This document shows positions 8,789 to 57,442 of a stretch of 64,000 nt of DNA, piece after piece (positions within the stretch are counted from its first letter, which is position 1; every line of letters starts with the position of its first letter). The translations under genes were made by a program, and so were the position numbers. The DNA is taken from assembly GCA_963971425.1 (NCBI GenBank), contig OZ020517.1, positions 30,228,734-30,292,733 on the forward strand, given 5' to 3'. Source of the DNA: Bryoerythrophyllum caledonicum (lineage: Eukaryota > Streptophyta > Bryopsida > Pottiales > Pottiaceae). The notes under the pieces were generated by a model. The model did not search any database, was not told the origin of the DNA, and worked only from the letters and a program-made list of their open reading frames with translations.

Positions 8789-11700
8789 TTACTTGAGGTT
8801 GCCCCAATCTTCGATCTCGGGAGTGCAAAAGCTGGTGCTAGACCCGGAAATGGAGGTCCTGTAATACGGATACTTCGACTCCTCTTCCTCCACAACCAAA
8901 GCATTGTTTGTTTCCACAACCGGCGCCTCTGAAAATGGGTCTCTCAAGCTGCTGTCATCACCAGTTGTGGTACAGTCTTCAATCTTTGCTGCGGCGGCGA
9001 TGGTGTCTGCGAATTGCGTCGCCGCTGACGACGACTCCGGCGCGAGGAGCGTCAGCTTGTGCACCTTCCTCCCACGCAGCTTCTTCTGCGCTCGCCCAGC
9101 TTTCGGAGCCTGCAGCTTTCGGAGCTCCACCGACGGCGGCGGCGCCTCGTCGTCGTCATTCTCGGGGATCTCGTTGTGGTGAACCCATTGGTCTTGCGGG
9201 AGCGAGAGGCGATGATGGTCTTGATCCTCCTCGGCTTGTGGCCACATGCAGTTGTTTCCCGCAGCGCCGCCGTCGTCCTGCGTCTTCAGCTGCAGTTGCT
9301 TCATCGTGGGTATGTGTTTCCGCATCGGCGAGGAGCTGATCATGGCGCAACTGTTGGCGTTGGCGACCGTTTGCGCGAACACGACCTGCTCGTGACCCAC
9401 GGCGCGGCTGCTTCGCCTCCGCCGGCGCTGGAAGAAGGCCGCTGCGAATGCGCGTCGTATCACCGCCACCTGCCATATCACCAATCAACATGCTCACACA
9501 AATGACACCATGGTTTCTCGCATGAGTAAAGAAGCATTTCTCCACCCGGCAAGACTGACTTGAGAAAGCTCCCCGTAGAGCATCCAAGGCAACCAAACCA
9601 CCGTCAGGAGTATTTGCCATGACGGCACAACGTTTCTGCAGAAACAAAATCAATGAAAGGACTGAAAATTGACCTGAGTAACAGACTCATCGTGCTCGGC
9701 TTGCAAAGCGGCTAGTGATCGTCGCAGATCCCGACATTGTTGTTGATACCTGCACTCACCATTGCATTAGAATATGAAAGTGGACGCTTTACTCAAGTTT
9801 TCAGAGTCGAAATGCTAGGTGAGAAGAATATATTACGTGAGAGGCCGGACGTAAAACCGCAAAGTTATTGCATCTTCCTCTGGTTGAAGATAGCCTTCTT
9901 TCTCAAGAAGATCGATCCTGAAAAACTGGTAGTAGCCCCAACATGCACCCTCCTGTAATACACACCCCATCGTACAAGGTCACTTTAGAACGTTAAATAA
10001 TCAAATAAAAACACGGTGATACAAAACATACAACTTTTTTTAATTTCTTTCAATACAAACCCGATCAAACAGTGCCAAGAACCGATATTGATCTTCTTAT
10101 CCTTTTGATACAACCGCCACACATTTAACAACTGAAAGGGAATAAAAACATGCAGATTTTCGCCCACTATGTGGAACTGGTTGAGACTTGCCTCAAAGTC
10201 GGAGGAGAATTTTCGAACAATGCGCTGGTTTGGACGAGTCCGGTGCAGAAGATCAATGCCATACTCAAAAGTTGCAGGTTCATTTCCGCCTTCCACCATC
10301 TGTCAAGGTTTGTCGAAGATCAGATATACTTTTTTTCCGAGATTACAAGTGGTATGGGAAGTGAGGTACAGTGAGAAAAATGAGATTTTAAACAGATACT
10401 AGACCTTCCTAGTGGTATGAAATGGTAAGAGATATGAGGTGTACCTCTAGAAAAACTGAAAGATGGGTGCCCTGAGAAGCGCCACTGCCATTTGGATATA
10501 CCTGGTCCAAAACCATTTGTCAGATACTTGGGAGTGAAAACATATCCACAACTTTGTAAAATATTAATATTAACGAGGTTTGGAGACATGATTGATTAAT
10601 ACCTTCAGCCTCCATGTAACCCCCGCGGCACAAATAGGCTGCACAAACACAAAATACCATGCAAAAGTTAGCAAAATTAGAACACAATAGAGTACAAAGC
10701 TGCCTTCAAATTCACATGGAACAACAAATCTGAATTATTTGTAGGCCCTCCTCATCAAGAAAAACATTTAGGCAGCCAAACTCAGGATATTTTGAATCCA
10801 GAAAATCCAGTAGGGTTCTTCTTAGAGTTTTTCTTCAGATTGGGTGCCTTGAAAAAAGGACAACTCTAAAAAAGTTGGAGCGTATCGTCTAAAACTCAAG
10901 CCCACTTTTTGGAGGAAGTGTGTTATACCTCACTATACACAACCTCCTTGTTTGACAGGACTTCACTGAGGTTTGGGGTGACAACAGTGGGCCTGAGATT
11001 TTCCTTGTAATTCTTCAGAATGAGCTCCCCATGCTCATAAGATGGCACAACCTGCAAATTAACCCTCATAATCAGGTCTCCACTATCACATTATGAAGCC
11101 ACACAAGTTGTGAAGATTAAATGTACCTCTGATGTGAATTCTGGAGAGATTGGTGTGCACGAAATGTCTGAAAACGTGCGCGTCCGAATGTCCTGAATAG
11201 AGTAAGCGCCCCCACAGAAAGGTTATAATCTTTCAAATAAAATAGTTCATTATGTAAATGAATGTAGGTAAATACTTATCAATATTACTTAACCCTTAAA
11301 CGTCAGAGGGTGGCCATAGTATTCTAAATGTATGGTGTTGTATTTGAACATGATAAGGTTCAAATATTGAAATGACCTCCAAATGAAAGATGTTACTTGA
11401 AGAATCTTCAACGAATGCTGAACTTTAATACATTTTTTGTATTCTACAATAAAATATGTGCCTGTATATATGTTGAAGAAATGGAAGAGATGTTTACCTG
11501 CAACATTCGGCTCATGTTGGGCTCTTGTGCTATAAGATCACTTTTGGGAATGCTGCTCAGCTGTTGGTCTAACTCATGTAATATTGTGTCCAAGAGCTCC
11601 ATCTGTGCCACAATTGTGAATATGAGTTACTCTTAAAAGGAGACATTAATAAAAAAAACACAAGTATTTTCTCTCATTTTTCTAATTTAGATAATTTGGA

Positions 11701-14395: not shown

Positions 14396-14791
14396 CTCTC
14401 AAAACTCAAAACATCCCCGCTACTCAGCTCTGGCTATGGCGCGAATGAAGAGGATACCCCGACACCAGTGTGCATCCGAAGATGAGCTCACGCTTGCTCC
14501 ATAGCTCAAACCAGCTCTCTTCGCTATGATTCTACACCAGTTGCTCGAGGAAACCCAGGTTGGAGACACGACGAAAACAGAAGTTGGAGTCTCACAGACA
14601 AACAATCGCTCTCCTCCAACAATCTACCACGGCTCCTTCCACTTCATCTGTGTCTGAGAGGTGGCTAACAGCTTGATAATCCTGCCCACATTCTGATTGT
14701 TATTAATACCAGCTGGCGTTCGCATTCACCCATCATCATGTCGTGTGCTGCTCCAGATCATTGTCTGCTGCTATAAACAACACACGCCTCT

Positions 14792-15106
14792 GTGTTCACC
14801 TGCACAATCCGCTTCACTTTTTTGGTTACTTCTGCAACTGTTGTTGTTGACCTGGTTTCTGTTACCTCACGTCAGCAATGTTTGTTCGAATCTCAAAGGG
14901 TTGGTCGTTTGTGGCTGCCTGGGTCCACCTTTTTTCCTTCCAACGGGCTTGTGCATTCGGAGGGATTCCGGGGAGCATCCTAGAATCCTTTCCTCAACAA
15001 CAACCGTCGTGTGCCGCGATTCAATGCCGCTCATCTTGTGGATCACGTCAACTCTCCTGCGATCATCTCGAGGGAGACCGAGGAAGAACTGGAGCTTGGT
15101 TACTAA
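14792..15106 (+). pseudogene. Possible 3' end of an unrecognised plus-strand gene
   Basis: One frame reads QQCLFESQRVGRLWLPGS, STFFPSNGLVHSEGFRGAS, a TAG (14981-14983), then NPFLNNNRRVPRFNAAHLVD and ETEEELELGY before TAA at 15104. The second part has coding-like GC-rich third positions. A splice acceptor lies before each part (CACGTCAG at about 14876; CATCCTAG ending at 14983), so the stop may fall inside an intron rather than break the gene. I recognise no family. The tandem array downstream starts exactly in its last codons (ELGY, stop), as at other genes here. It would share a divergent promoter region with the TRIM37-like gene. Confidence 0.35.
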
Positions 15107-15537
15107 TGAAAGTTACTGTAGCAGATCATGTACTTCTGGAGATTGTCTCGTGTAATCTGCTCCCTCTTCTCCTTCAGATTATGAGAGATGGATGATGCAT
15201 TTCCGCTGTTTAAGAGCTTGGTTACAAATGAAGTTACTGTAGCATATCATGTACTTCTGGGGATTGTCTCTTGTAATCTGCTCCCTCTTCTCTTTCAGAT
15301 TATGAGAGATGGGTGATACATTTCCGCTGTTTAAGAGCATGGTTACGAATGAAGTTCTTGTGGCAGATCATGTAATTTTAGGATTGTCTCTTGTAATCTG
15401 CTCCCTCTTCTCCTTCATAATCTGTGATAGATTTCCGCTGAATTAGAGCTTGGTTATGGATGAAGTTACTGTTGCAGATGTCATTTTGGGATTACCTGTT
15501 GTAATCTTCTCCCTCTTCTCCTTCATAATCTGTGAGA
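15092..15537 (+). repeat. Four-copy tandem array of a gene 3' end, about 112-122 bp units
   Basis: Units begin GAGCTTGGTTAC at 15092, 15214, 15334 (GAGCATGG) and about 15445, each followed by TGAAGTTACTGTAGCAGAT and CTGCTCCCTCTTCTCCTTC. Later units are more diverged and shorter. Scattered related pieces reappear at about 16505-16560 and 16780-16880, beyond the inserted MITEs, so the array was probably longer and then split. Confidence 0.8.
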
Positions 15538-15734
15538 TTAACCCCTAAAGGCATGTTAGAGGCGATTATACTCCATTGGTTATAGACTAGCAAGGTGAAC
15601 ATTTTCAGCATGTAACTTACATGAAACGATGTGGGGAAAAAGTTGTGGCTTTTGACCGTACATATTGAAAGATATTTGTGGTCAAAGTGTAAAAATGTAT
15701 CCCCCTAATGAACACTTGGTCCTTTTGGGGTTAA
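15538..15734 (+). mobile_element. TTAA-flanked MITE, family C (197 bp)
   Basis: Ends TTAACCCCTAAAGG and CCTTTTGGGGTTAA. The interior has TTTTGACCGTACATATTGAA, the core also found in families A and B, so it looks like a shortened relative. Confidence 0.65.
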
Positions 15735-16490
15735 CCCCTAAATTTCCAAGAGTCCCCTTGGGGGACTCTAGAAGGTTCGGGCAGGTACGTCCTGCGTCAA
15801 CTTATAACATTATATTTTGAATTTTTATAGTAGATGGACATTACTAAAAGCTTTGTGTGAGTTCAATTTTTTCCTAAATCCAACATTTTATGAAAAAAAT
15901 TATATGGTTTTGAAGTTTAAATGGGGAGAGCGGGCACGTCGGGCAACTCCGAAAACTTTTGCTATGACACTCTATTGAATGTGAGATTTTCAGTTCTAGC
16001 TAGTAATATCATTTCCTTTCATGTTGTCAAAAAAATCTCTTGACTGTAGTGAAAAAAGCATATAAATCCAAGTCAAACATTTTCACACATTATCGCATAT
16101 TGTCGGGCAAGGTACCAAAAAAAAACTTCTTCTTTTTCACATAAAACTTTGAGATCATCATATTTTTTACTTTTTATTTTTTCCGCACCATTATGTGGTG
16201 TAAACCTACTTATTGACCATTTGGATTCTCATTCTAAAACATACTAAGTTCGCAAAAAAAATATAACGCAAATTGACAATTTTTGAACCTCCACTCCTTG
16301 CACAATTTTTTGGAATATGCTACACCCTTTCTCTACCTCTAGAAACTCGAGTAGAAGGAACTAATATCATGCTTAACATGATGGAAATGGTTTTAGACCT
16401 TGTGTAGTGCAAAAATTTGACACCAAGTCAAGTCAAAGTCTCTTGATCTACTAAACACAGGGAAGAAAATGGACCCTTTTCTCTACTTCA
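15731..16490 (-). mobile_element. TTAA-flanked MITE, family B, copy 2, right end lost
   Basis: Left end TTAACCCCTAAATTTCC, then the family B interior in reverse (GCGGGCACGTCGGGCAACTC). About the last 180 bp seen in the complete copy are missing. Its left TTAA is also the right TTAA of the 15538-15734 element. Confidence 0.7.
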
Positions 16491-17378
16491 TAATCACAAA
16501 TGAAATCACTTAGGGTTTCTCTTGTAATCTAGTCGTGCACTCTCCTTCATAATATATCGATAAGAGGAATCACTACTCCATTGAATGGAAACTACCATTA
16601 CAAACAATTTGAGAATGTAACCATATGATCTTCTTCTAAAAATTACATAAGAATGATGGGGCAACACTTTTGTGAATTTTGACCTGTATAAATTGCAGTC
16701 AATGTGATGTAATTGTACAACGTAGGGGGTAATGATAGATTTCAGCTTGGTATTTATTCTCTCCAGATGAATTATCATAGAATCCTGCCCCTCTCCTGCG
16801 GACTGATCCATTCATAATGTGAGAGATTACCGTAGGCCTGGCTCATGATGAAGTTACTGGAGCGACCGTAATCTCTGTCGTCAGCTTGAGCACATGCGCT
16901 GTTTATCATGTGATTTCGTCCATTTCCTTCGAAAACCACAAGCTTCCACAAAAGATGATGTGAGTATTATTTGGCATCACATGGGTTATCATTTCATTTT
17001 GTCATCGAGGGGGGTGATCCTCGCATGTGTTTTGTCATTTTGTCATCGAAAGATGAAGGAGCGGATGTAAGGTCATGGTTGACTTTTTACCCAATTGGTT
17101 TTTAATTTTTTGGTTGTTGTTGCAAGAATCTGCTTTTAAAATTGCGTGGGATTGGGTGGGAATTAGCTGATTAGGTTGCGAGAGAGGGGGAAGTAGGCTC
17201 AGAGAGAAGGCTTTTGAGGTGAGGAAGAAAGCATTGCAGTTATAGTGGCCACTGAAGAACTTACTACATGAACGGAACTCTTTTTTGTTCACTATTGGAA
17301 TTAGCTTAACATTTATAAAGTTTGAAGTTTTCACATGAATTCCCATTGGATATGAGTTAGATATGAACTACATAGATT
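16491..17378. other. Intergenic DNA with scraps of the 15.1-kb array
   Basis: Fragments such as CTCTTGTAATCT and GATGAAGTTACTGGAGC recall the 15.1-kb tandem units. No gene recognised. Confidence 0.35.
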
Positions 17379-17735
17379 AAGGTAAGCTCCCCATAACCAA
17401 CAAAAAAAACCTTTAGCCAATGCCTATAAAATTGGGGTATATCCAACCCTCTTCCATCCCTTTACCACCAACTCAGCTCCAAATGGAGGTTTGCTATTAG
17501 TCAAGACCCTTACTTTTGGTCGTTGGTTATGGGGGGTATCTAGTGTTGGCCACCCACTAAACATAGCTGGAGAGTTTGAAAATTCATAAATAATTCAGTT
17601 TTCATCGAAAAATATGAAATCACTTGGGTTGGAATTGTAATTCTGTTGGCTACCACTGAAAAATAATAGTATAATTATCTCCTCTCTCCATATATACACA
17701 TTGCTTAACTTGTCGGTTTTAGGGGGGCTTACCTT
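17379..17735. mobile_element. MITE with AAGGTAAGC termini, family H, copy 1 (357 bp)
   Basis: Ends AAGGTAAGCTCCCC and GGGGGGCTTACCTT, flanked by a possible 3-bp duplication ATT. No coding capacity; the 3-bp target fits PIF/Harbinger-type or CACTA-type elements, but I cannot decide which. Confidence 0.65.
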
Positions 17736-19304
17736 ATTCTATTTTGTACAAGAGACACACTTACTATTTGTTGAAGGAAATAAAAAAAAATTACATAGTT
17801 GGAGGCTATCACGCCCTAGATAGTTGGAGGCTATCACGCCCATCATGGTTGCAGAAATTATATTATGCTCGTATTTTACTGTAATCTATTTACAGCTTTT
17901 TTCCACAAACAAAATTTGGTGGCTAAGTTTTATAAATAAATATTGGGAACCAAAAAAAGTTTATAGTCAGTCACTGAGAAGATACTAAGGTCTCTAGATG
18001 AGGTAGTACCTAGACATCAACATACTACAACGAAGGTATGATTCTATATATCACCATGAGTATTTGAAAATATCTTAGACATTAGAAAATAAATGAAGAA
18101 AAATAAATCATTTTTAAGAGTATTGCCGTTCTGACAATCATTCCTAGACTACACATATCATCATATTTAATATTAGGCATTTTTAGTGAAATTACTCTAT
18201 ATTTGCTTTCATACGAATTGTGATTGTATGTGATAGAACATGCAATTAAGCAATTATGCCCTTAGTGGATTTTTGCACAAAGCAATCCAAAAAGATATAA
18301 AATGAGTAAGACTTTAGTGTTTCTTTGGGATGAATTTGCGTATCTAGTGCTTTCAAGATCAAGCCCCTTCATGTGCCTCCAAGTGCCATATGCTCCTCAA
18401 TCTAGTGGAAATGAAGAATCAAATTATTTCAACATAAGTGGAACGTGGGTCAATTTGCCATACACAACAGCATTAAAAATGCATATGAATCATGAAGGCA
18501 CTTGCACATTTGACCATTTTTTCCCCTTGCCTTGGAGGTGTATTGTGGATGCACCCATTGTAGCTTGAACCATGGAATTCAAGTCCTTCAATGTCGGTTT
18601 CCTCTAAATATGCCTCCTCAAATATCAAGGCATAGTCATTCCTATATGTGTGTACCATCAACTTAGTAGGATATCATGGTATGATGTGCTTACTATAGAC
18701 CTAGCTTGAGATAAAGTAGAGGGTTGAACAATTATAAATTTCAAGCACAACCTTGAACATCACCAAGGCTTATGGGAGCTCATTAGAGGTTGTTGAAACC
18801 TTGAGGGAATATGGGGGGGAAGAAATAGTACCCAAATGGGTAACCAAGGAAATTAGGTCAAAATCTCCTAGTTCTACTTGTGGCTTTGTTTGGAAAGCCC
18901 ATAGAGCCCCAATGCTTTGGTGTTTTGATGCTTCAATGCTTGGAATGCCTACCAACTCTAAGCCCTATTTGAGGTGTTTGGATTTCTTAAGATATATTTT
19001 TTACCCTTTCCCATATTTTCAATATTTCTCCAAAAATACCTAATCACAATAAACATAGAATAAAAAAGTCTTAGTTGTCGGGACTTTGAGGTTTACGGAG
19101 GGGGGCATGTTGTATTCTTCTCCTAGAAAAAACCCATGTCCACCCTCCCAAAAATAAAAAGGATAAATCCATAAATAATGGTTCTAATTTTCTATACTTT
19201 TTTATTAAAAAAATTAACTCTTGAAAACTCCAAAACCTCTTGCATTTGTATACAATAGCCACCACCATAGACAAGTGCAATTTTAGGTTGTAAAGTAAAA
19301 TTTC
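17736..19304. other. AT-rich DNA without a recognisable gene
   Basis: Contains a doubled GATAGTTGGAGGCTATCACGCC near 17820-17840, related to a stretch near 22385. A frame at 18302-18568 (88 codons) has no recognisable domain and ordinary AT-rich composition, so I do not call it a gene. Confidence 0.3.
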
Positions 19305-20260: not shown

Positions 20261-20319
20261 TTTAGGGGAAATTGCGTGTTCTACTTTCTTCATCATCATG
20301 AATTAGTATCTCTTACAAT

Positions 20320-21840
20320 CTATTTTAGTTCCAAAAACTCTAACCTCACCAAAATTTGATCCGGCATATAGCTACTATACCGATGGCTCCTTCAAACCAC
20401 ATGAACAAGTTAGCCCGGGAAACTTGCGCACAGAAAAAGTTGGCTATGGCATATACAATTCTATTAAAGAATTTAAATTAGCCCAAAGACTCCACGGACT
20501 GCAAAACATCCTTAGAGTAGAATTTATGGCCATACACAAAACACTACAAATCATCACAATAAAATACAGCAATGAACCCGCGCACATATTCACTGGCTGT
20601 ATCAATGCACTTTATCTACTAAACATCCAAATAACACACCCTACCCTCCACAATAGCCACCCTGATCAAACTATATTAATGTCAATGGTCCAAATGTTAC
20701 AAAACCGAACACAAATGACAACCCTTCACAAAGTTGGAGCCCATGCCAATATCGATGGAAACGAACAAGCATATAAACTAGCAAAAGAAGGCCACAAAAA
20801 ATCGCATAAAAATGCCAAAGATCCATACAAACATGCCCATGCTATCCCATACTACTTCCAAAAAGAAGATTGGCTTTCTAAAGAAGATACCTCCGATAAA
20901 GGCCCGGTTAGATTCTTGAACAAACATCTCAAGAAACAAGACCTCTATAACAACCTTGACACAATCGCATAAAACTTCCCTAATATAGAAAAATGGACTG
21001 GCAACAACAAAATAGATAATAAACTCTCTATAAATTTTTGGAAGAATCCGACCATCTCTGACTCACAAATAACATGCCTCATCAAATTCCGTACCGGTCA
21101 ATATATGGGAAACGCCCGAAAACAACTCTTCTTTGGAATAAAAAGATTCCCATCTATAACATGTCCCATTTGCACTTCCACGGATTCCGACACTTGGCTA
21201 CATGTTTTACTTAAATGTCTTAACCACCACATACACTCGCTAATTGTCAAAAGACATAACAAAGTTGTATGGGAAATCCATAAATTAATCACCTCCCATA
21301 ACAAATCGAGATGTTTTATCCTCATGAATGTCGGCACCTTTTAATAACAACCCACAAGGGAATACGGTTCCACCATGGCTACTCCCATGTACATGTGAAA
21401 CTCACCGATGCCACTGCAATGCTCGACTCAAACCGGACATACTCTACGTTAGAGGCCTACCATACAATGACCCCCCACCCAACCACATAAACCAAGACTA
21501 CACCATTCAATTCATCGAATTTACATACTGTAATGACAGATTCTTCCCATAAACAATCAAAAACAAAATCAATAAATACCAACCCCTTATTGATGACATC
21601 ACTGCCCTCGGATGGAAAGTGGACCCCCTTATTGTAATCACAGCCGACGCTCGTGCCACCATCTTTATCCCATCTATGAAAATCCTAGAAGATACCTTCA
21701 AAATTCCTATTGATACAATTACAAACACTTTCAAAAATATTAACATCATTGCCATACAACATGCTATGTCCATCCTTTTACATAAACACAAGATTGAAAA
21801 CAACCAAGCCCTTCCCGATACACAAGACCCCCCTTTACTT
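20320..21840 (+). mobile_element. 3' half of a LINE: RNase H, zinc-finger and restriction-like endonuclease parts
   Basis: The RNase H part (from about 20320) has YYTDGS (20373-20390), RVEFMAIHK and HKVGAHANIDGNEQAYKLAK. The third and fourth acidic residues usually seen are Gly and Tyr, so it is probably inactive. The frame stops at 20970 and then continues as an RT-thumb-like tail, KFRTGQYMGNARK, and a finger CPICTSTDSDTWLHVLLKC. A frameshift follows, then CTCETHRCHCNARLKPDILY, QFIEFTYCND, KINKYQPLIDDITALGWKVD and PLIVITADARATIF. This last block fits the restriction-like endonuclease (PD...E, then K..KY..L...L...GW.V) of early-branching non-LTR elements. The reverse transcriptase is missing. 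Its 5' edge abuts the TTAA end of a MITE at 20260. The 3' end is not defined. Confidence 0.7.
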
Positions 21841-23846: not shown

Positions 23847-23979
23847 TTAACCTTTTAAAGACAAGGTCCAAAGCGACCATGGGCGGAATGTACCCGTTGC
23901 CTTGACAACACGTAACATAATCTACAACCCTAATAGATTCCACCCATGGTCGCTCCAGGCCTCGCCCTTAAAGGGTTAA
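23847..23979. mobile_element. TTAA-flanked hairpin MITE, family F (133 bp)
   Basis: Inverted arms of about 40 bp begin TTAACC(C)TTTAA and include GCGACCATGGG on both sides. TTAA stands at both ends. A short near-palindromic relative of the other TTAA elements. Confidence 0.65.
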
Positions 23980-24299: not shown

Positions 24300-25121
24300 T
24301 TAACCCCTAAAGGACCAAGGCAATATTTCCTCAAAAACACTCCAAAACTGTCATTTTCAAGTCTAGCACATTCAACACAAAATGATACAAAATCATTTTT
24401 TTGAAAATTTAACCGTAGAATCTTGTACTAGACTTGTATGAGAGTGTGTGGTAAACTTTTTGGTAAGTTTGACCGCACGGATTGAAAGATATTAGCCTTT
24501 GAAGTGCGACATAATCTCTTTTTCAGGTCATACTATACACCTTCAACAAACTTCGACCACCTTCTATGGCAACTATTTGCACTACGGGCCGTGAATTTAT
24601 TGTGTTAACTTGAAAAAGATCATGTTAGGCACATGTACACCAAATTTTAGAAGTATAAGAGGTGTAGAAGATGTCCTAAAAAATCCTGCAATGCAACTAT
24701 GTGCCGAGAATCAACAATACTCTTTATATTTTGCATATATCATATCCTTTTCAAATATTCGAAATTCACAAATCCGTACGGTAGATGCAAAGATCTCAAC
24801 CTCCTTTCCAAGAGGACATTTTTCTTCTTTTTAATGGACAAAAACTCGAATTTCTATTGAATTTAGAAGATATTAAAGTTTGGTGACAGAATTTGTGATA
24901 TGTCACACTAAACTGCTGCACTATTTGTATATGTAAGTGAAGATAATTTGTAACTTTTGAACCGTAAGTCGGAATTCTACGAAATTTGTGTCTACCCAAA
25001 GCTAATCAAAAGTTGTCCAGTTGATAAAAAATCTCAGAAAATAATGCCTAGAATTGAGAACGTGGTACCTTACCCAAACTCAAAATGTCCCCCAAGGGGA
25101 CATTGGTCCTTTAGGGGTTAA
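24300..25121 (+). mobile_element. TTAA-flanked MITE, family A, copy 1 (about 820 bp)
   Basis: Ends TTAACCCCTAAAGGACCAA and TTGGTCCTTTAGGGGTTAA are exact inverted repeats, with TTAA as the outermost four bases on both sides. No transposase. The TTAA ends and CCC start suit a piggyBac-type non-autonomous element. The interior carries a motif like TTTGACCGCACGGATTGAAA. Confidence 0.8.
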
Positions 25122-26053: not shown

Positions 26054-26859
26054 TTAATCCTAGAAGGACCACAACATTTTAGCACCCAAACTCACTAAAA
26101 ACTGCCACTTTCAATGCATCTAACACAAAATGCAAATGAATACACTTTTTACATATCTAAATGTAGGATCTTATACTAGGATTGTACAAGTGTATGTTGT
26201 AAAAAATGTCTTCAGTTTGACCGTAAGATATCAGCCTTTGAAGTGAGACATAACTCTTCTTGAGGTCATACTAAACACCTTCAACAAACTCCAACCACCT
26301 TCTATGGCAACTTTTTGCACTAAAGAGTGTAATTTTCTAAAGTTAACTTTAAAATGACCATGTTAGGCAAATGTGCACCAAATTTAAGAAGTGGAAAAGG
26401 GGTAGAAGATGTCCTTAAAAATCCTGCAATGCAATTATGGCCTAAGAATTAATAATCCACTTCAAGGTTTTGCATATATCATATCCTTCTCATGTTTTTG
26501 AAATTCAAAAATCCATACAGTAGATGCAAAAATTTCCATTTTCTTTCCAAGAAGATTTTTATTTAATTCTAAAATAGACAAAAACTCAAGTTTCTATTTG
26601 AATTTAGAGTTGATTAAAGTTTTTCTACACTATTTGTTGTATGTCACACTAAACTGTAGCACCATTTGTATATGTTAGAGGACAAAATTGTAACTTTTGA
26701 ACCGTAGGTCAAATTCCTACAAAAATTATGTCAACGGGAAGCTAATAAGAAGTTACAATTTAGGAAAAGAATCTCAAAAAATCATGCCGAAATTTGAGAA
26801 GGTGGTACCCTACCCATCTCAAAATGTCCCCGAGGGGACACTCGACCTTTAGGGGTTAA
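26054..26859 (+). mobile_element. TTAA-flanked MITE, family A, copy 3
   Basis: Same interior order as the 24.3-kb copy but clearly more diverged. The left end is eroded (TTAATCCTAGAAGGACCA); the right end is GACCTTTAGGGGTTAA. Confidence 0.7.
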
Positions 26860-27718: not shown

Positions 27719-28023
27719 TTAACCTTTTAAAACCAATGAGCTTTTTTGGCTTGTGAGGATCTACAAGTGTTCTAGATTGTGCAAAATGACATCTATGCAA
27801 TGTATACATTTTAGCACGGAAGTCGACAAACTCATTTCACAAAAATCTTTGTAGCTCGTCGATGCTTGCACCGATTGCGGTGGCGATGCTCTCAATAGAT
27901 GCCCATCTTCTTCCACCTCTAAGTCATGGTCTATTTTTTCCTTTGAGGTGGCCTGTAGCACTTCATGTAAAGGTTCTTGTGCCAAAACAAGCCATATATG
28001 GTCGACCAACCTTAAAGGGTTAA
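27719..28023 (-). mobile_element. TTAA-flanked MITE, family E, copy 1 (305 bp)
   Basis: Ends TTAACCTTTTAAAACC and AACCTTAAAGGGTTAA. On the minus strand it carries GAGGTGGAAGAAGATGGGCA, shared with the 57.1-kb copy. Confidence 0.7.
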
Positions 28024-34186: not shown

Positions 34187-34392
34187 TTCAATCTTTAAAC
34201 GACAGTTGGGAAGTGTATATTCATGCACGTATTTACTCCTTGAAAATACAAAAAATGTATTAAAGTTTAGCAAGACTTACACCTTTGGATTAGAGATTCT
34301 TCAACTAACCTCTTTCATCATGTTCACATACAACACTGTACATGTTGAATACTTCTAGCCACGAGTGGCACCTTTTGATGTTTAAGGGTTAA
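34187..34392 (-). mobile_element. TTAA-flanked MITE, family D, copy 2
   Basis: Reverse of the 55.2-kb copy. Right end TTTGATGTTTAAGGGTTAA; the left end is eroded to CAATCTTTAAACG. Sits between NAGK and the EAPP-like gene. Confidence 0.6.
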
Positions 34393-37290: not shown

Positions 37291-39127
37291 TTTGCAAACC
37301 CTAAAGCCCCAACCCTAATCACTTCACACTAAACCGGGAACCGCTATATTTTTATGTACTGGAGAGCTATTCCAGGATTGTGGGTGCAAATTTCAAGATG
37401 ATGAAGCTCGACCCTAAATCCTACTTCCAAAATCCTCATCTCTAAACCTGGAGCCTCCAGATGTTTTATGTGCTGGAGTGGAAGACCAACCCTGAACAAA
37501 CCACTTTTCATCTGGCAAGACAAACCCTAGACAAACCCTGAACTTGACAGAGGTCTCCAAGCATGATTACAAACCTGAGCTCCTACAAATGTGAAGTCTA
37601 CCTGTCAAGTAGAATTTTGGAATAGAAACCTCTACTTCCACCCCACTCGTACCTTCAACTTACCTCGCCCTTGCCTAGAGTGGTAGCTATATAGTTTTCG
37701 ATTTATTTATAGATTTTTTAATGAAATTTTGTTGGTGTGAACATCAAAATGTTTAGCATGCAAGTAGGTTTGGATCTCTTGGTGTTTTTAGATTTTAGTG
37801 CTAGTGTAGGATGTATTTATATCTAGTTGGTAGGGTCTAATATGACACTTAATCATTAATCATAAGACATCTTCAAGTATAGGATATGTTTTTGTACAAT
37901 CAATTTACCTAGTTCAAAACTCCTATAATATGATAGTTGGAGATTGTGTTATGACAATCAAGGCTCCCCATTTGGGACTTATTGGTCTTTGGGGTTAAGC
38001 TTTTTCTCAACTTGTCTACTATCAGTACTGTTCCATACTACTAAACCTTTGTCCGGTTGCCATTGTTTTAGTGTTGGAACAAGTAGACACTCTACTCACA
38101 TCGGCCAACCAGCCTCCCTCCTACTACTACAAGTAACATCCTCTATAGCCTCTACAAATGAGATTGTCTTTGAGCCTATACATGCATTAGTTTTAGGTGA
38201 AGTGCCCAAAAATATGCAAGCATAGTGTAAAAGTGCATAGCGCATAATGCATAGAACAAAAGTGTCAAACTTGGAATGTTGACAACAACCCCATTTATAC
38301 TACATTAACTATGATATTTAGTGTTGGCCCCACTAAACTACAAACACAAACGTAAAATGTCACTAGAGGCTTGAATGTGGCTAACACTATATGTTAAATA
38401 TAACACTATTTTTCAAGTTTAATAAATTCTTTGAGCTAAAGAAAAGTGACATGTGTACTGTACATTTAGTGGTATTATTTCAAAAACCTACATTTGAACA
38501 ATTACTTTATATTTGTAATTAATGGCAAGATGAGGTGTAAGGTTTCTCAACTTTGTAGCTCAGCTAAACATTTACTACTAGTTACCTCAATGTATGACAC
38601 AGTTCAAAATTCAACGTGTCATTAGAGTGAGGGAAGTAAAAATAAATGTCAAGCCACACCTAACACCGGGCACTCACCAAAATAATATAGAAAGTGTACA
38701 CTCTTGAAAACGTGCTCAAGTGCATGACCCTATGTTGAACAGGACGCGATCACAACATGGCCAATAAGGTTAATAATTACAATAGAGTTTCCTGAAAGTG
38801 AAAGGGGTCATCTTGCATATCACTCCCTACATAATGGTCTTATTATGTTTGTAACTCGAATCACATGACCAAGGGTGACTTGGCTTGGGAAACATGAGGA
38901 AACTATTGATAACCTCTTTGAGATCTCATGGTGCGACAAGATACTCATTAAACTTGTACTGGGTAGGGTCCAAGAGCATTGATTGCCATCCATTCAATTG
39001 GTGCAGAATTAAAAGGGAGCACAAAAGTCCTCATGCTCTCTTTCTTTCCATTGATTAAAATCTCACATAGACTTTTTCATTTCTTTCTCCAACACAAGGA
39101 CTTTCAAGAAAACTCTAATAAGGTATT
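37291..39127. other. Intergenic DNA downstream of the EAPP array
   Basis: A piece at about 38020-38110 (TGTCCGGTTGCCATTGTTTT, GTTGGAACAAGTAGACAC) is related to 22035-22080. No gene recognised. Confidence 0.3.
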
Positions 39128-39475
39128 CTCCCCCATGCCCGCCACACTATATTCGGTCCCAATTCCACCCCATATCCGCCCCATTTCCACCCATTCACTC
39201 TCTCTCAGTTCCAAATAAAAAAACTTACTGTTGGTGAGAACCCCTAACCTTTGATCACTGCTAATGGGGAGTACCTAGTGGCAAAAATAGGCCAAACATG
39301 GCTGACCACTTTGAAAATTCATAACTAATTCACATCTCATCAAAAAAAAAAATGTAATCACTTGAGATTGTACTTCTATCGTCTATCACTAGAAAAAAAA
39401 ATTTAAAATAATATTTGGATTCCCCTTATATGCACAGTGCTTAAACTGTCGGTCATGGGGGGTACACCAAGTTAT
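39128..39475. mobile_element. MITE family H, copy 3, diverged
   Basis: Interior blocks TCGGTCCCAATTCCACCC and ACTGTCGGTCATGGGGGGT match family H, with eroded ends. Confidence 0.45.
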
Positions 39476-39537: not shown

Positions 39538-39710
39538 CACTACAAGAAAACAAGGTATTTAGCAGCGTTTTGAAAAATTTCTAAGCAACGCCTAGGGGTT
39601 GCTTTTTAAAGAAGCAACAACTGTAGCGTGGTTATAAATACAAAGCAAGCCCCTAGGCGTTGCTTAGAAATTTTACATAACATTGCTAAACACCCTGTTT
39701 TCTTGTAGTG
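39538..39710. mobile_element. CACTA-type MITE, 173 bp, with CCT target duplication
   Basis: Ends CACTACAAGAAAACA and TGTTTTCTTGTAGTG, flanked by CCT at 39535-39537 and 39711-39713. The two halves are themselves inverted copies (GCAACGCCTAGGGGTTGC against AAGCCCCTAGGCGTTGC), so the whole element can fold as one long hairpin. The TIR is the well-known plant CACTA terminus. Confidence 0.85.
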
Positions 39711-40765: not shown

Positions 40766-40769
40766 GAAT

Positions 40770-42258
40770 CAAATGTGATTTTCTTGAGGTATATAAGTGG
40801 AGTCTATAGAAAACAGCACAACATGAACTATTACAAGTAGATAATAAAGCAAACGAAGCATCACAAGTATACTGTGTGAAGTAAGAGATTCAGCACAGAT
40901 ATACTACAATTTTATTGAAAGAAGAATACAATCTGACATATATACTACAGAGGAAAAGCAAAAGCAGTACAGAGTAAAAGCAAAAGCAGTACAAAGTAAA
41001 AGCAAAAGCACCGCGAACGTGATTTCTACGTTTGCTCTAATCTTTCCTGTTGTGAATCACGTGATTTCTCTGAATGTTTGTGACATCTCATCAAGGACTC
41101 ATGACTTTTAGTCGGAACTCTTTAAACCATGTGGACTATGGTATGGGTAGGGGGTGTGGACAAAACTTGGCCCTTATTTTTACGATGGAAGGGGGCCCTA
41201 ATTAGACCAAGGGAGGGTCTCCAATGATAATTTGGGACTGCAAGCTCCAAATTTGGCAAAAGAATTCCAAAAAAGTTTCTAGAACCCCCAAATATAAAAA
41301 GACCAAAAAAATGAGGCCTATCCTGGCTCACCCTTTGTGACATTGAAAAGAGTTATACCTTCAACCTTTTTTGCTTTGACCTTCTATTAAAATGAGATTT
41401 AAAATAGAATTTAGTTCCATTGTTTCATTTGAGATTGGAAAAAAAAAACCTAGGTTTAGGGTGAAATTTTCACTCCAAGATGAGTTTAAGTTTTCTCACC
41501 TTTTTCGGGCAAGGTGCACAAAAAGAGTTTCATTTCCTTGCAAATATTAGTGACCATCATTTTTTCTCATTTCATTTATTTCTTCAAGAAATATGAACTT
41601 TAGTTCAAACCAACTAAATTTTAACTTCACACTTGGACAAAATGATTAAAAATCAAACGTGGTATGGTGATTTTTGAACCAATCTTCCTTGCTTAATTTT
41701 TTTGAAAATGCATCACTTCTCCAATTCCCTTAAAAATTGAATTCGCCGTAAAGTGGTTATGAATTTGGAAGTAATTAGTATTCATGCTTGATGGTTCTCT
41801 AGAACAATATAATTTAGTCCTACCGTCTCATGAGAAATATATATTTTGGCTATATAGAGCTAGATTCATGGGGTTTTTCTTTAAAAAAACCTTATCTGGG
41901 CTCTATCTTGTCATTTTTTTAATCATCAACCGTCTTAAAACATTAACATATTTCATTTGAACTCATCAATTTAGACAAGGTAGGGGACATATTTTCATAA
42001 TAAAGCATAGATTATAGCTTAGTACTTTACTCTTAAAAAATTTGTAACTATTTCAACAATGGGAACTGTAGTTGTTTAAAGATTCAAAGAAAAATTGCAA
42101 AAATCATAATGTTCTATTTCAGTTTTAAAAAATAGAACTCTTCCTCATACAACACTACTATAAATAGATCAAGGAGCTCAAATTGGTGGTTACAAGACAT
42201 CCGATCTAACATAAGCTAAGGCCCTTCTCTTTACGAACAATGTCGTGCTATTACAATA
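40770..42258. other. AT-rich upstream flank of the kinase
   Basis: Short direct repeats AGCAAAAGCAGTACA at about 40956-41010. Nothing else recognised. Confidence 0.3.
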
Positions 42259-42259
42259 G

Positions 42260-42758: not shown

Positions 42759-43105
42759 AGATAAGCCTCCCCATAACCAACAAAAACCCATAGCCAACGC
42801 CTATACAATTGGGATATATCCAACCCTCTTCCATCCCATTACCACCAATTGAGCTCCAAATTGAGGTTTGCTATTAGTCAAGATCCTTTAAACTTTTGGT
42901 CGTTGGTTGTGGGGGTACCTACTACTGGCCACCCACTAAACATGGCTGCACAGTTTGAAAATTCATAACTAATTCAGCTTTCGTCAAAAAAATATGAAAT
43001 CACTTGGGTTGGAACTGTAATTCTATTGGCTATCACTGAAAAATTAAATTTTAATTATCTCCTCTGCACATTCCTTAACTTGTCGGTTTTAGGGGGGCTT
43101 ACCTT
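42759..43105. mobile_element. MITE family H, copy 2
   Basis: Same orientation and interior as the 17.4-kb copy (CCATAACCAACAAAAA, ACTTGTCGGTTTTAGGGGGG). Left end eroded, right end GGGGGGCTTACCTT intact. Confidence 0.65.
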
Positions 43106-43809
43106 AGTAACTGCTGATTGTTTCTGTTCGTTAGGGCAACGTTGCTGACCCAATTTTCATTGATATTCCATTCCCATGATCCTAGAATGGGTTCCAGTTG
43201 TCGAGCACCAGACGTGCAGCGATATGCACAACCAACAACGAGTGCCAAGTGTTCACCGCAAGGCTGTGCTTTGTGGGCCTCACCCAGCCAAGTTCGCAGG
43301 CCACTCAGCCGCCTTAAACATGTTCGCTTCTTCACAACTCTGACCTAATTCCATTTCCCTCGCCAGAAGAAGCTCACTCTCAGCTTAATTCTCAGGTTCG
43401 TCATTCGGATCCAAGCTCATTGCCACTGCCTTAGAGTAGCTAGGGTCGTGGATGTTGTGGTACGAGGGGACCAGTGAACTGATTCCGCTGCAGTGAGACA
43501 GACAGCCTTGATTGTACATCGGTGATCAACCTTCTCGCTGGGAGTTTTCTCGTGCTTGATGGTCTTCACGTGGTGATATTCATGGCACAATCAGGGCTTT
43601 GATGGTCCATCCATACTATTTAAAACATTTATGTGCTTGATGCTCTTCATGTGAGTGTTTAAATTTGGTCTGTTTCTTCGGGGTCCTAGACGCGGTTACT
43701 AGAACAGTAGTGTGAGACAAACAGCTCTGATCTGAACTCCGGTAGTGAGCACGTAAACTCAGGCAGCCTGCAGTACCAACCGGGTATGCCAGGGTGATGA
43801 CATAACATT

Positions 43810-44610: not shown

Positions 44611-45426
44611 TTAACCCCTGAAGGACCAATGTCCCCTCGGGGGACGTTTTGAGTTTAGGTAAGGTACCACGTTCTCAATTCTAGGCATTATTTTCTAAGA
44701 TTTTTTATTGAATTGCCAACTTCTGATTAGCTTTGTGTAGACACAAATTTCGTAGAATTCCCACTTACAATTCAAAAGTTACAATTTATTTTGACTTACA
44801 TATACAAATAGTGCAGCAGTTTACTGTGACATATCACAAATACTGTCACCAAACTTTAATAACTTCTAAATTCAATAGAAATTCAAGTTTTTGTCCATTT
44901 AAAAGACTGAAAATGTCCTCTTGGAAAGGAAATTGAGATCTTTGCATCTACCGTATGGATTTGTGAATTTCAAATATTTGAGAAGGATATGATATATGCA
45001 AAATATAAAGTGTATTGTTGATTCTTGGCACATAGGTGCATTGCAGGATTTTTTAGGACATCTTCTACACCTCTTCTACTTCTAAAAGTTGGTGCACATG
45101 TGCCTAACATGATCCTTTTCAAGTTAAGACAATAAAATCACGGCCCGTAGTGCAAAAAGTTGCAGTAGAAGGTGGTCGAAGTTTGTTGAAGATGTATAGT
45201 ATGACCTCAAAAAGAGATTATGTCGTTTTCCAAAGGCTAATATCTTTCAACCCGTGCGGTCAAACTTACCAAAAATTTTACCACACACTCTCATACAAGT
45301 CTAGTACAAGATCCTACGGTTAAATTTTCAAAAAAATTATTTTGTATCATTTTGTGTTGAATGCGCTGAAAATGGCAGTTTGGGAGTGTTTTTGAGGAAA
45401 AATTGCCTTGGTCCTTTAGGGGTTAA
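44611..45426 (-). mobile_element. TTAA-flanked MITE, family A, copy 2, inverted
   Basis: Nearly the same length and interior as the 24.3-kb copy in the opposite direction. Starts TTAACCCCTGAAGGACCAA and ends TTGGTCCTTTAGGGGTTAA. Lies 227 bp after the small protein gene. Close similarity to the 24.3-kb copy suggests fairly recent mobility. Confidence 0.8.
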
Positions 45427-46139
45427 CTTGTTTACACCTCTTCGTGTAAATTTGCTTTAGATTTATGGATAATAGCTAATGGTGAGATAGGTTATTACAT
45501 GAGTGGGGATTGCGTGCATACCATACGCATTGTTACAGTTTCACTTTCTCGAGAAAAAATTGTAACGTTTTGAACGTTAAAATATGATAAGGGTGATGAC
45601 ATTTTCTGTACCTCTACCTCACTCAAAAAATCGAAGCAAAATCGCCGCACTCTTCCGTGCAAGATGTAGAAAAGCTGCATCATCGAAACCAGACCAGTCC
45701 AGAGTCTTCAAAATATATACTGATGGCAATTCTACTGCCATACCATATGGCACATTAATAATAAACAACGCTTATTTGATACAATGTGTACACGGCCAGA
45801 ACTCCCATCATCCTCATCCTCACCCTCTTCTCAACAAATACAATCCGTATCCTTGCATCCCATCCTCACTCACCCACCAGGGCCACCAATAACCCCAAAT
45901 AAATCCGTCCCCCCTCACATCGAGCGCCAGGTCCAAAACGAAATAGTGGGGGCGAGCAATCTAGAAAAAGGAGAAGAGAAAACATAAATTGCGGATTCCA
46001 TCCAATCAACCCTTCTCCTCGTGCTCAATGACTTCCAGCTGAGAATGACTTCCAGCAGAAATCGAATCTTGGGGAAAACTAACCGATAGAAAGGACCAGG
46101 TTACTACAATGATATGTCTCTCACTTTCTTTCGTTGTTT
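45427..46139. other. TAF4 3' flank with a possible RNase H scrap
   Basis: A plus-strand stretch at about 45690-45790 encodes RVFKIYTDGNSTAIPYG, which recalls the start of LINE RNase H. It is too short to assign. The rest probably includes the TAF4 3' untranslated region. Confidence 0.3.
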
Positions 46140-52100: not shown

Positions 52101-54823
52101 CCGCCGGTTGCTGACCCGCTGCTTGTTGAGCACCTGCTTGTGGCGGTCCCTGCTGCAGAGATCCGGCACCACAAAAACCTCAAATATCAGGTCAACTGCG
52201 AATGCAAATCACGCTTTAACGCCAAAGTGAGAATAGCCATACGCACAACAGAACCGATCTAGTTATCACCCGAGATATGAGATTACAGAACTGCCAGCTC
52301 TTCTCAAGCGACAGGAACGCTACTAGCGATCATGAACCGAACCTTAGTCTAATTGCTGCGCTTAAGACTGATCAACAAACCGAGACACCGTCAGCAAACA
52401 GAAAACCCACCACCCTGGATAACAATAACCCTATGAAAACAGAAGTCTAAATGAAGGCTGCACTTAAACCATGGCACCCACCGGGAAAGCTCAATCTCAC
52501 AGCTATGCGAAAATAAAAACGCAACTGGAACCATGTCTCGAGAGTGCTGGAATTTTACGACAGTCAATAATACCCAATTGACAACAAGGTCCTTCTCGAC
52601 ATCCCCTCTTCCCAAAACATGCATCGTAGCCCCATGAGCTTCCAAGACGGTTAAACTTCAAATTGCACAGATAGACACCAAATGGCGAAGAAAATGACCA
52701 CCCATCAACTTAATAAACCTCGACACAGATGTTCTCCAGATGAACCCGCCTCACCTTCTGATGCATCTGCCGGATGGTCTGCACCAACACTTGATCTCCA
52801 ACAATCACTCTCGCTCCTCGCACGAAATCTTCCCTCGTTATCTCATTTTGCTGCACATCTCCATTCAGAACTCATCAGAAACCATCAGAACTCACCATGA
52901 AACGATGCCTCACTGAGTTAACCAAAATCTACAGGGATCCTTGAACCCCAACTCTTTAACCCTTCTAAACCCTAAACCCTCCTAGAGATCAGACTAAGAG
53001 GTTCAGGGTTTAGGGTTTAGACTTGAGTCGAGCTCCTAGTTTAGAATTTCATTTCAGGGGTCCGCTTCTCGGACCTCTCACATTTCTCAAGCAAACAAAA
53101 AAATACCTCTATCATACCTACAAACTTCCTTGCACATGTGAGAACACAGAGCGCGTCTCATCGCGTTCTCGTAATAATTCACTACCTCCGCTGTTTAGTT
53201 CGAGAAACCATTTCCCAAAGACTATACACCATCTCCACATGCCCTCCCCTTTGTCCAGACAGTACCTCACCTCACTATAAGGTAGCCCAGCATTTGAAAA
53301 CCCTAATGTACACAGCGGTTCAGAACACCCTCCTTTTAAAGAAAATAGCTAAGCTACTCTAACGTGCTGAAATAACCTTCACCTAGGTTTCAGAAAGTCC
53401 CTAAACTAAACCCCTGCCACGCAAAATTCTCCATAGCAAGACCACGATCATTAGTTCTTAAGCTATCGATTGCAATCATCAAATCCTCAATCATTAGTGT
53501 TGAATCTCTACATCTTATCACATCATCATGAGCTCATTTCAGATAGCGGAACCTAATCCTGACACTCACCTTGAACCGCTGGTACAAGGCGCTCAAGCGC
53601 TCTGACTTGTCCGGAGGAAGATGAGGCTGCAGCAACGGCATTAGCGCTCCAAAAGATATCCCTTGACTGATAGCACTCGGCCGCCTCTGCCCCTGCGCGC
53701 CCGCAGCAGCAGCAGCAGCAGCAGCTGCTCCCGCCTGCTGCTGCTGCTGCTGCTGAACCTGCTGAACCTGCTGCGCCTGCTGCTGCTGAACCTGCTGAAT
53801 CTGCTGCGCCTGCTGCTGCTGCTGCTGCTGCGCACCTGCTCGTTGTTGCGCTTGCGCCTGCGCCTGCCGTTGCGCCAACTGCTGGCGGTACAGGTGCTGC
53901 TGGCGGTAAACCTGCTGCTGCTGCGATGTCATCTTGCTCCATTGCTCCGCCGTGATCTGCATCGGCGCTGACATGGCCTTTGGCGTCCCTGCTGCTGTAA
54001 TATAACCAGAACATGAAATTCACTCCTCCACTAATTTCGCAGCTCAATGTCAAGCGTAATAATCCTATCCTACTACCTGTGGCAGGCGGGACGGAAGACG
54101 CCGTCGGCGCTTGAAGCGAAGCCGGAGACGGAATCGGCTTCAAACTCCCGTTCCCCGCGCGCGCGAGACCGTACGCCGCGGCCGCAGCCACCGTCGCGCC
54201 ATCGCCTAACACTCCCTTCAACCTCTCCGTGTATGCATCCACCGCGGCTCCCGATACCGGTGGCCCGCTCTCATCCTCCTAATGCGAAAACCACCAATCC
54301 ACGATCGCCAAATCAAAACAACAACAAACTCAACTCTCTCTCCAACTCTCTCCCTCTCTTCCTCACCAAATCAGGATTTTTTTTTAAAAAACAACATAAC
54401 CTCAAACTCGAGCGACGTCGATTTCACTCCCCCCTGCGCCATCCCAATCCCTACGAATGCGAACCTCCTCTCCAAACCAAATCAAAAACCCTACAAAGCT
54501 CTCGCCCTCCAGCTAAAACAACAAAACTCTTCCTCCCGGCACCATCCTCAAAAAGCAACAAAACCTGAAACTCAAGCTAATCCTAAAAAACCGTCGATCT
54601 CACTGCTCCCTTCATCCCCCTGCGCCATTCCAAAAAAACCTAAAAAAGCAAAACTCTTCCTCCACCGAAAGGAAACCTCGATTCTCATCGCACACAACAG
54701 AAAACTCTCGCTCCAGCTGTAAAACCTCGATTTCAGTGCTCAATCCATCCCCGTGCGCCATTCCAGTCGTGACCGGCAGCGTACCTCGTCGTCTTCGAGG
54801 AGCTTGATGAGGCCGGGATCCAT
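46140..54823 (-). CDS. TAF4: TFIID subunit TAF4 with RST domain, 18 exons, 1116 aa
   Basis: Core TFIID subunit that pairs with TAF12 in RNA polymerase II initiation. Exons on the minus strand: 54785-54823, 54077-54278, 53570-53994, 52755-52850, 51895-52152, 51255-51644, 50566-51009, 49936-50187, 49481-49674, 48859-48946, 48553-48688, 48109-48161, 47889-47945, 47616-47759, 47343-47405, 47008-47149, 46724-46888, 46140-46342; all phases agree. The start [13 protein letters not shown] matches plant TAF4. A Q-rich region with an Ala run (about 90-175) precedes the RST domain (about 195-254: [39 protein letters not shown]). Long disordered Q/P-rich exons 5-9 follow. The conserved C-terminal TAF4 region starts near 767: [57 protein letters not shown], and the end [19 protein letters not shown]. 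It is longer than the Arabidopsis proteins because of the disordered middle. Confidence 0.96.
52965..53020. repeat. Inverted telomere-type repeats in a TAF4 intron
   Basis: CTAAACCCTAAACCCT (52965-52980) faces AGGGTTTAGGGTTTAG (53005-53020), a perfect 16-bp inverted pair of plant telomere-type units in intron 3. Confidence 0.8.
54418..54770 (-). repeat. Tandem units in TAF4 intron 1
   Basis: Three imperfect copies containing CCCCCTGCGCCATTCCA at about 54430, 54618 and 54750, each followed by an AAAACTCTTCCTCC- or AAAACTCTCGCTCC-like stretch. Confidence 0.55.
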
Positions 54824-55213
54824 GGGAGCGATGGTGGTGTTGCGGAGATGGTGCGAAGAGTTCGATGGTGTGAGCTCCAAACCCTAAACCCCGAAGTCGA
54901 GCCAGGCTTTATATGGCTTCTCTTTACATGGCGGGCCGCGGGTTTGGGGGCTGGTTCTATCTCCGTGGGCGGGGCAGTTGGTTGTCTTTTCGTGGGAAGC
55001 TTTTCTTTCCATTTTCAGGATAAAGTATACTTTTTGTGGTTATCATGAGTGGTGTGTGGATTGGGATTGAGTGAGAAATGTTTAATTATGACTTCCTGTG
55101 ATTATCTTCAACCTTGATGTGATGTGATGGAGATTTTGAAAGGAAGTTCACATTAAAGATTTAACAGAGGAGAAGGATTGTGATTCCTTTTTATTTGGTA
55201 TCCGGGTAATGAT

Positions 55214-55408
55214 TTAACCTTTAAACGTCAAAAGGTGGCCACAATATTCTACATGTATGGTATCTTATCTGAAATGACCTCCAAATGAAACATGTCAGTT
55301 GGAGAATCTTCAATCCAAAGGTATAAGTTTTGCTAAACTTTAGTACATTCTTTTGGAATCTATGTAGGAAAATATGCGTATGGTTCCCGGCTGACGTTGA
55401 AGGGTTAA
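55214..55408 (+). mobile_element. TTAA-flanked MITE, family D, copy 1 (195 bp)
   Basis: Ends TTAACCTTTAAACGTCA and TGACGTTGAAGGGTTAA. Lies about 390 bp upstream of TAF4. Confidence 0.7.
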
Positions 55409-55492
55409 GAGTGTATTGGTTTAGTAATTGTTGTTGTCTTTTGTCTATTGTGGTTTTCTTCATATTGGATGTAACTCAAATCTAGGAATTGT

Positions 55493-55773
55493 TTAACCTT
55501 GTAAGGACAAGTGACCATTTTTGGGTCTTTTTGGCGCGCTTACTTCTGCAAGCTATCTTGGAGGCAAAATTTAGAGGTGGAGTAAGATGAGCATCTTTCG
55601 GGACCAACGCCGTCAAATCAATGCACGCATTGACGAGCTACAGTGATTTCCGTGGAGTGAGGTTGCATGAAATGTACCTCGTGTGCAAATGATGTTCTGC
55701 ATGGTCTATGACACTTATTGATTCTCTCAAGCCTTGAGAGCTTCCTTGGCCTTAACGGATTATGATTAAGGAA
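55493..55773 (+). mobile_element. MITE family E, copy 3, diverged
   Basis: Starts TTAACCTTGTAAGGACAAG and carries GAGGTGGAGTAAGATGAGCA. The right end is decayed (CCTTAACGGATTA). Confidence 0.5.
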
Positions 55774-57148
55774 GATGATGTTAATTTTATATGAGATTGA
55801 CGTAAAAGTAGGTTGGTTCCTTTTGAGGTACCAACGTGAATTCAATGTTATTTACAAGAACTTTGCATCATTTACTACAGGACAAACAGTGTACCAAAGA
55901 CCAAAAGGACATAATTACTTTCCTCTTGGATTACTTAGATTTAAAGATATTAAGATTTAAGGTGAAGTTTACATAAAAGTAGAAGGATTATAGTTCCTTT
56001 AAGATAATTATTGCAAAAATTAATGTTTATTTATAAGTAGAGTATTTTGTACTATATACTATAAAAGAAAGACCATGACAAAGATCAAGAGGACGAGACT
56101 ATTTTCCTATTTTCATTGGAATGGAGATACTTTAAGACACATCACATACAACATACGTATTTTGTTGATAAGAAAGACAATTTTTGTAAATGTGGTTATC
56201 TAGTTAGACTAATAAATTTATTTCACATAACTTACAAACATTCTTGTGTGAACACACCCAAATTTTTGTAGTTATATTTACTAAGCGTGTGACAAAATTA
56301 GGTCCAATTTTGATGTCACTCACTATTCTATTTCAAATACAACATGGCAAGGAGTAAGCATTTTGGACATCAACTTGAATAAACCATGAATTGTTATGTC
56401 ATGTGTAGAGTAGAACAATAAATGAGCTTGTTTTAGCACCATAGAAGGTTTGCCATAAGAAAAAAATCAAATCAAAGATCTAAATCTTTTAGATTTCATT
56501 ACATGGCCAAAACAACATTTTAATTGGCGTGCTACAAAAAACATTGCATTAGCGTAACAATTTATCATATGTCAAGTCCACTTTTTTCTAGGGTGCAATG
56601 GTGGTGTACTTCGTAAGATATTCTTCTCATTCGCAAATTTCTTATTTAAATCTAGTACAACAATGACATCTTTGAGTTGCATATATTTATATGATAGCAG
56701 CTAAGAATAACAATATTTTCTGGTGGATCACTCTGAAGTGATTCACAAGTGGTGAGGGTGATTTAAGATTTTAGTTGGATCATAGCCATTAATAATTCCA
56801 TGAATAATTCCATGTACTATTTGAATCAAATGTTGTATTCTTAACACATGAATGTATTTTTTCACATACAAATAAAACATGAGTTCAAGTAGATCATGTG
56901 TTTGACATAGCAGACATATTATGGAAGATAATCTTTCTTACCCAATGTAGTTGTACCGGAATGGCACCCATAATTGCTTGTCGTTGAGTATGAGGACAGA
57001 AGTGATTTGAGATCATTTGTGTCATGTCACTTGTGTGATTTGAGAGTTCAATCGCCCCAACAAGACAGGCAATACAGTAACTGTCCGAATTAAGACAACG
57101 AATCAGCAGTGTACTTTTTCAATATCCAAATGAGGAAAACTCTATCAC
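55774..57148. other. AT-rich intergenic DNA
   Basis: No coding signal, element ends or tandem structure recognised. Confidence 0.3.
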
Positions 57149-57442
57149 TTAACTCTTTAAGGCTGAACAATCATATATGGGTCGTTTTGACACAAGAACC
57201 TTTAAAGCAAGCGTTACAGGCCACCTCAAAGGAAAAAAATACACCATGACTTAGAGGTGGAGGAAGATGGGCATCTATTGAGACCATCGCCACAACAATC
57301 GGTGCAACCATCAACAAGTTACATTGATTCCGTGATGTGGAATCGTAGACCTTCGTGTTGAAGTGTAGATGCCATTCTACGTGATCTAGAACAAGTGTAG
57401 ATTCTCTCCGGGTTGAACACCTCATTGGCCTTTAAGGGTTAA
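57149..57442 (+). mobile_element. TTAA-flanked MITE, family E, copy 2 (294 bp)
   Basis: Ends TTAACTCTTTAAGG and GCCTTTAAGGGTTAA, with GAGGTGGAGGAAGATGGGCA inside. Close match to the reverse of the 27.7-kb copy. Confidence 0.7.

Follow-up and report, generated by a model that had tools for sequence, protein, structure and literature searches.

The window (the whole 64,000-nucleotide stretch of DNA that was analysed) carries an acetylglutamate kinase (Pfam AA_kinase; best PDB chains 2jj4 and 4usj, of which 4usj is named chloroplastic), a small protein kinase (best PDB chain from a calcium-dependent protein kinase), along with a CIA30 domain and an HIUase. Repeats interspersed with AAACCCT-like runs lie near the CIA30 gene (62047-62787), and telomere-like motifs (AAACCCTA) occur 17 times on the + strand and 4 times on the - strand. 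There is also a CACTA-type MITE of 173 bp (39538-39710; CACTACAAGAAAAC...GTTTTCTTGTAGTG), which has CACTACAAGAAAA ends, arms that are ~81% complementary and CCT flanks on both sides, likely a target duplication; the same end sequence occurs in a radish CACTA paper (PMC7210773). Gene content, telomere-like motifs and the CACTA-type element are all plant-like, as a first-pass annotation made from the sequence had described the genome.

TTAA-bounded elements in the window

By self-comparison of the window, family alignments, an end scan and profile searches, we resolved six groups with 16 elements or fragments in all, as well as two lone ends (Table 1), which matches the earlier estimate of about sixteen elements. 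Group A has five members, groups B, C and D have three each, and E (197 bp) and T (133 bp) are singletons. The reality of these TTAA-bounded elements is confirmed: intact copies start with TTAA-CC and finish with GG-TTAA, just as the TTAACC(C)...GG(G)TTAA termini first noticed would have it, and copies with both ends placed measure 133, 195, 197, 205, 271-305, 806-822, 930 (A3) and 956 bp. The label MITE, applied to all of them, fits the groups of 133-305 bp, whereas those of 806-956 bp are better termed non-autonomous elements. Likewise, the elements placed in the interval 11289-57442 are real, but the set extends past both sides of it, with A-group copies at 1-744 and 2324-3253 and a lone end at 63442; an A-group fragment (41369-41740) was added by profile search.

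Table 1. Positions of the TTAA-bounded elements, lone ends and perfect right-end palindromes (window coordinates)
Feature	Positions	Strand	Evidence
A1, intact 956-bp element, TTAACCCCTAAATTTC...GAAATTTAGGGGTTAA	19305..20260	+	inner end bases match 12/12; family alignment
A2, right end intact at 15731, left end missing; ~90% identical to A1	15731..16498	-	
A3, older A-group copy; left TTAA kept, right TTAA decayed; no right-end palindrome	2324..3253	+	
A4, A-group copy truncated by the window start	1..744	+	nhmmer 485 bits, aligned 2-744
A5, internal fragment of group A	41369..41740	-	nhmmer E 2.7e-16
B1, intact 822-bp element	24300..25121	+	
B2, intact 816-bp element; 92% identical to B1	44611..45426	-	
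B3, older 806-bp copy; ~76% identical to B1; left end TTAATCC	26054..26859	+	
B1 right-end palindrome; arms 9 bp, spacer 3 bases; element bp 14-34	25084..25104		
A2 right-end palindrome; arms 9 bp, spacer 3 bases; element bp 15-35	15749..15769		
C3, 195-bp MITE	55214..55408	+	
C2, C-group copy; decayed end at 34188 (TCAA)	34188..34392	-	
C1, C-group copy; right end decayed	11289..11474	+	
D1, 305-bp MITE	27719..28023	+	
D2, 294-bp MITE; TTAACTC at end 57149	57149..57442	-	
D3, 271-bp copy; decayed end at 55763 (ATAA); palindrome 55724-55740	55493..55763	-	
E, 197-bp MITE closing a tandem array; adjoins A2, one TTAA in common	15538..15734	+	
T, 133-bp MITE; inverted ends ~46 bp, imperfect (78%)	23847..23979	+	
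Lone end TTAACCCCAAAGACC; partner candidates within 2.5 kb weak only (11/16 bases)	37939..37998	-	
Lone end TTAACCCTTTAAGGC; partner candidates within 2.5 kb weak only (11/16 bases)	63383..63442	-	

The end sequence of the elements can be given as TTAACCCYTWAAGG, and the short end that they have in common is CCCYTWAAGG-like. TTAA stands at 24 of the 26 tabulated ends and a TTAACC start at 22 of 26, the latter tally being partly circular because many of the ends were selected by that same motif; no intact TTAA is present at the right ends of A3, C1 and C2 or at the left ends of D3 and A2. Among the 40 open frames scanned, out of 233 in the window (stop to stop, at least 70 aa), none held a transposase domain, which agrees with the earlier remark that no transposase is visible and leaves room for a decayed fragment of one in the remaining 193. 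An exact 17-base end motif had 0 matches in viral contigs. A 19-base right-end motif matched once in prokaryote genomes, in a Denitrovibrio MAG with no second end within 7461 bases, and since in 257 Gb, both strands counted, a 19-mer should match ~2 times by chance, we rejected this match as chance.

End statistics and the TTAA target

TTAACCC occurs 22 times in the window (both strands) vs. 8.8 expected, and 0 of 100 shuffles reached 22; several of these matches, e.g. those at 11059, 47595 and 52956, are not element ends. We also applied a pair test that uses no trained model, requiring TTAA followed by CC at both ends, 100-1200 bp apart, with the inner 12 bp agreeing as inverted repeats (at most 4 mismatches), and obtained 6 pairs vs. 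a mean of 0.19 and a maximum of 3 in 200 first-order Markov sequences. When 256 site-and-prefix combinations were tested in this way on the real window, AATT-TT alone exceeded TTAA-CC (15 pairs), and ATAT-TT and AATT-TG gave 5 pairs each; we took these three to be AT-rich background, which is an assumption. An end model trained on 20 ends found 23 sites of at least 12 bits vs. a mean of 1.7 and a maximum of 6 in 40 Markov sequences, a count that is partly circular in that the model was built from these ends. Outside the TTAA, the flanks of groups A-D showed no excess similarity in 16 of 18 comparisons (exceptions below 0.05: B2/B3 right, P_shuf 0.03; C1/C2 left, P_shuf 0.02). Similarity therefore stops at the TTAA in these 16, and ends reaching past it, which the first-pass annotation had named as evidence against its own reading, were not found there.

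E and A2 abut, the end of the one and the start of the other occupying the same four bases (TTAA, 15731-15734). We reasoned that neighbours targeting TTAA would share a single copy of it, whereas two copies would be seen if TTAA belonged to the elements' own ends, so that this junction fits TTAA as the target. On its left side, E is flanked by a tandem array of ~121-bp units (15092-15537) that halts at the E insertion. One array unit was considered as an empty site and rejected; it aligns to the insertion, reads GATTTC vs. the GATTAA expected, and A2 covers the right side. Array-like sequence seems to resume past A2 without a clean junction (alignment score 145 vs. a shuffle maximum of 113). 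When the flanks of 14 intervals were joined and searched for within the window, no match crossed an insertion point, the edges used for A3, C1 and D3 differing by 1 to 19 bp from those finally set. TTAA is present at both ends of intact copies, and a single-TTAA empty site was not found within the window; judged from sequence, duplication of TTAA upon insertion is likely. Beyond A2, array-like and E-like sequence seems to continue over about 16497-16784.

A palindrome inside the right ends of groups A and B

Groups A (956 bp) and B (806-822 bp) are homologous, by alignment and by nhmmer (E 8.8e-22 and 1.6e-20). At five of their six right ends (A1, A2 and B1-B3, not the decayed A3) a palindrome lies just inside the terminal repeat, a feature that played no part in choosing the elements. 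In A2 (AGAGTCCCC/GGGGACTCT) and B1 (AATGTCCCC/GGGGACATT) it consists of perfect 9-bp arms around a 3-base spacer, equalled by 0 of 300 shuffles, and at two positions the A2 and B1 arms disagree, in each case with a compensating change on the opposite arm. The arm scores of A1, B2 and B3 are 6-7 (P_shuf 0.02-0.05), with one pair broken in B2. Seven perfect palindromes with at least 40% G+C, a cut chosen after AT-rich palindromes had been noticed, are present in the window, and three of the seven lie no more than 40 bp from the terminus of one of the 28 listed ends (binomial P 1.8e-4); the third of these belongs to D3, at an end without TTAA, and D1 and D2 do not have it.

No palindrome beat shuffling at the right end of E, at the end 37998, in groups C and T or in D1 and D2. 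Nor was a related palindrome found within 150 bp at any of the six left ends searched (A1, A3, B1-B3 and E), the palindromes that do occur there, in B1, B2 and E, being unrelated and mostly AT-rich. Two identical 24-bp perfect palindromes (GAGGGGTCGAGGCCTCGACCCCTC) lie upstream of A3, at 2179-2202 and 2236-2259.

Assignment to a transposon superfamily and occurrence in plants

PiggyBac is a jumping-gene type best known from animals, with termini of the form CC...GG, like the ends described here, and a DDD transposase family, DDE_Tnp_1_7, which we take to be PF13843. We consider that the elements are probably non-autonomous cut-and-paste DNA transposons of piggyBac type that insert at TTAA. According to the passages cited from PMC7351741, the first 16 bp of the moth (Trichoplusia ni) piggyBac are bound symmetrically, the left end has a palindrome at bp 17-33 to which a dimer of the transposase's C-terminal domain binds, and the natural ends have unlike layouts, yet an internal repeat is present in both. 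Our elements resemble it in their TTAA borders, in having two ends of different layout and, at five of the six right ends of groups A and B, in a palindrome that comes after a short terminal repeat (at bp 17-33 in the moth element and bp 14-35 in ours; PMC7351741). They differ from it in end sequence, in their plant-like host, in having no visible transposase gene and in a palindrome that, outside groups A and B, is clear in D3 alone, and that is absent beside the terminal repeats of C, E, T, D1 and D2.

They differ further in having the palindrome at one end, whereas the moth element carries its internal repeat at both (PMC7351741). We had counted one-sidedness as a likeness to piggyBac and withdrew this, the moth element repeating its internal repeat at both ends and the six left ends here being without it to bp 150. 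The palindrome lies beside the terminal repeat as in piggyBac, and therefore its position matches, while one-sidedness is a difference; that an internal repeat at both ends defines the superfamily is a claim for which we have no evidence beyond its being true of the moth element. The original assignment to piggyBac is partly supported overall: CC...GG rather than RR...YY termini, abutting elements with one TTAA and a palindrome near the piggyBac left-end position argue for it, but the second internal repeat of the moth element is missing.

We propose that the elements move, or moved, in trans by means of a piggyBac-type transposase whose gene would lie at another genomic locus; this enzyme would recognise the shared short end at either side of an element. 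For groups A and B, we envisage the palindrome next to the right-hand terminal repeat as the binding site of a dimer formed by its C-terminal domain; this one-sided binding would lead to an asymmetric synapse, and excision and insertion would then use TTAA.

It is unlikely, by comparison, that the elements are moved by another TTAA-inserting superfamily, such as the TTAA-specific Sola3, or by an undescribed one. With no transposase seen, end sequence alone decides, and a palindrome at a single end is unlike the moth piggyBac with both; against this reading stand the CC...GG termini and a palindrome, not used to select elements, that adjoins the terminal repeat nearly where piggyBac has it at its left end. 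Still less credible, and in our view quite improbable, is an origin as non-autonomous Kolobok elements, another TTAA-duplicating superfamily that also occurs in some algae. Kolobok has the TTAA target in common with the elements here, is recorded in chlorophytes and rhodophytes in the passages cited from PMC9587614, and, together with T2-MITEs, comprises many short non-autonomous families in those from PMC6004289. However, its termini are given there as 5'-RR...YY-3' (PMC9587614) and AG-starting (PMC6004289), vs. CC...GG here, with a CC start at 22 of 26 tabulated ends, and RR...YY termini are not what the elements show. The misreading of chance or telomere-like TTAACCC motifs as element ends can be given almost no credence, for although telomere-like motifs are present in the window and some TTAACCC matches (such as 52956) adjoin them, matched ends are far more frequent than chance and the families are multi-copy, have defined borders and reach 822 bp at 92% identity, which refutes this reading for groups A-D; the lone ends 37998 and 63442 are possible chance hits.

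A piggyBac-type origin, then, would place a known kind of transposon in an unusual host, which is our best reading. That piggyBac elements have seldom been reported from plants is a reasonable statement, though not an absolute one, given a PiggyBac row (1230 and 122417, which we read as copies and bases) in a repeat table for the fern Ceratopteris richardii (PMC6890710) and a review whose cited passages list PiggyBac among plant superfamilies (PMC10794571). Ceratopteris is likewise a plant genome with PiggyBac-labelled repeats, and its count is the only plant one so labelled among the matches listed; the part of PMC6890710 cited is a table row alone, which gives neither ends nor target site nor structure. 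The matches listed from the open-licence literature included no paper on TTAA-ended piggyBac MITEs of plants, and a moss paper that matched "piggyBac" contained the word "piggybacking".

More tentatively, the several end groups and a one-end palindrome that co-varies between groups could mean that a plant lineage carries, or recently carried, its own diversified piggyBac-type system, a possibility to which we give somewhat less than even weight. If this is true, a transposase of piggyBac kind would have evolved new palindrome specificities in plants, with a simpler asymmetry than that of the moth element. PiggyBac is widely used in genome engineering, the literature found says little about its occurrence in plants, and a family native to plants, its copies being fairly alike (92% identity), could yield plant-adapted ends and possibly a transposase. 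Such a family would also test whether piggyBac-type ends as a rule have a palindrome beside their terminal repeat and whether one end suffices; the elements are of value for their multi-group end architecture and for the search after an autonomous partner.

Other repeats lie among the elements. A dispersed family of ~280-360 bp is found at 17380-17736, 42759-43106, 39142-39462 and 57678-57959, and two of its copies end in GGTAAGC-like and GCTTACC-like sequence by TTA/TAA-like bases. At 20307-21344, an open reading frame with an RNase H domain (Pfam 3.3e-08) is followed by an open frame with Cys/His residues and no Pfam match, and these frames are probably the tail of a retroelement.
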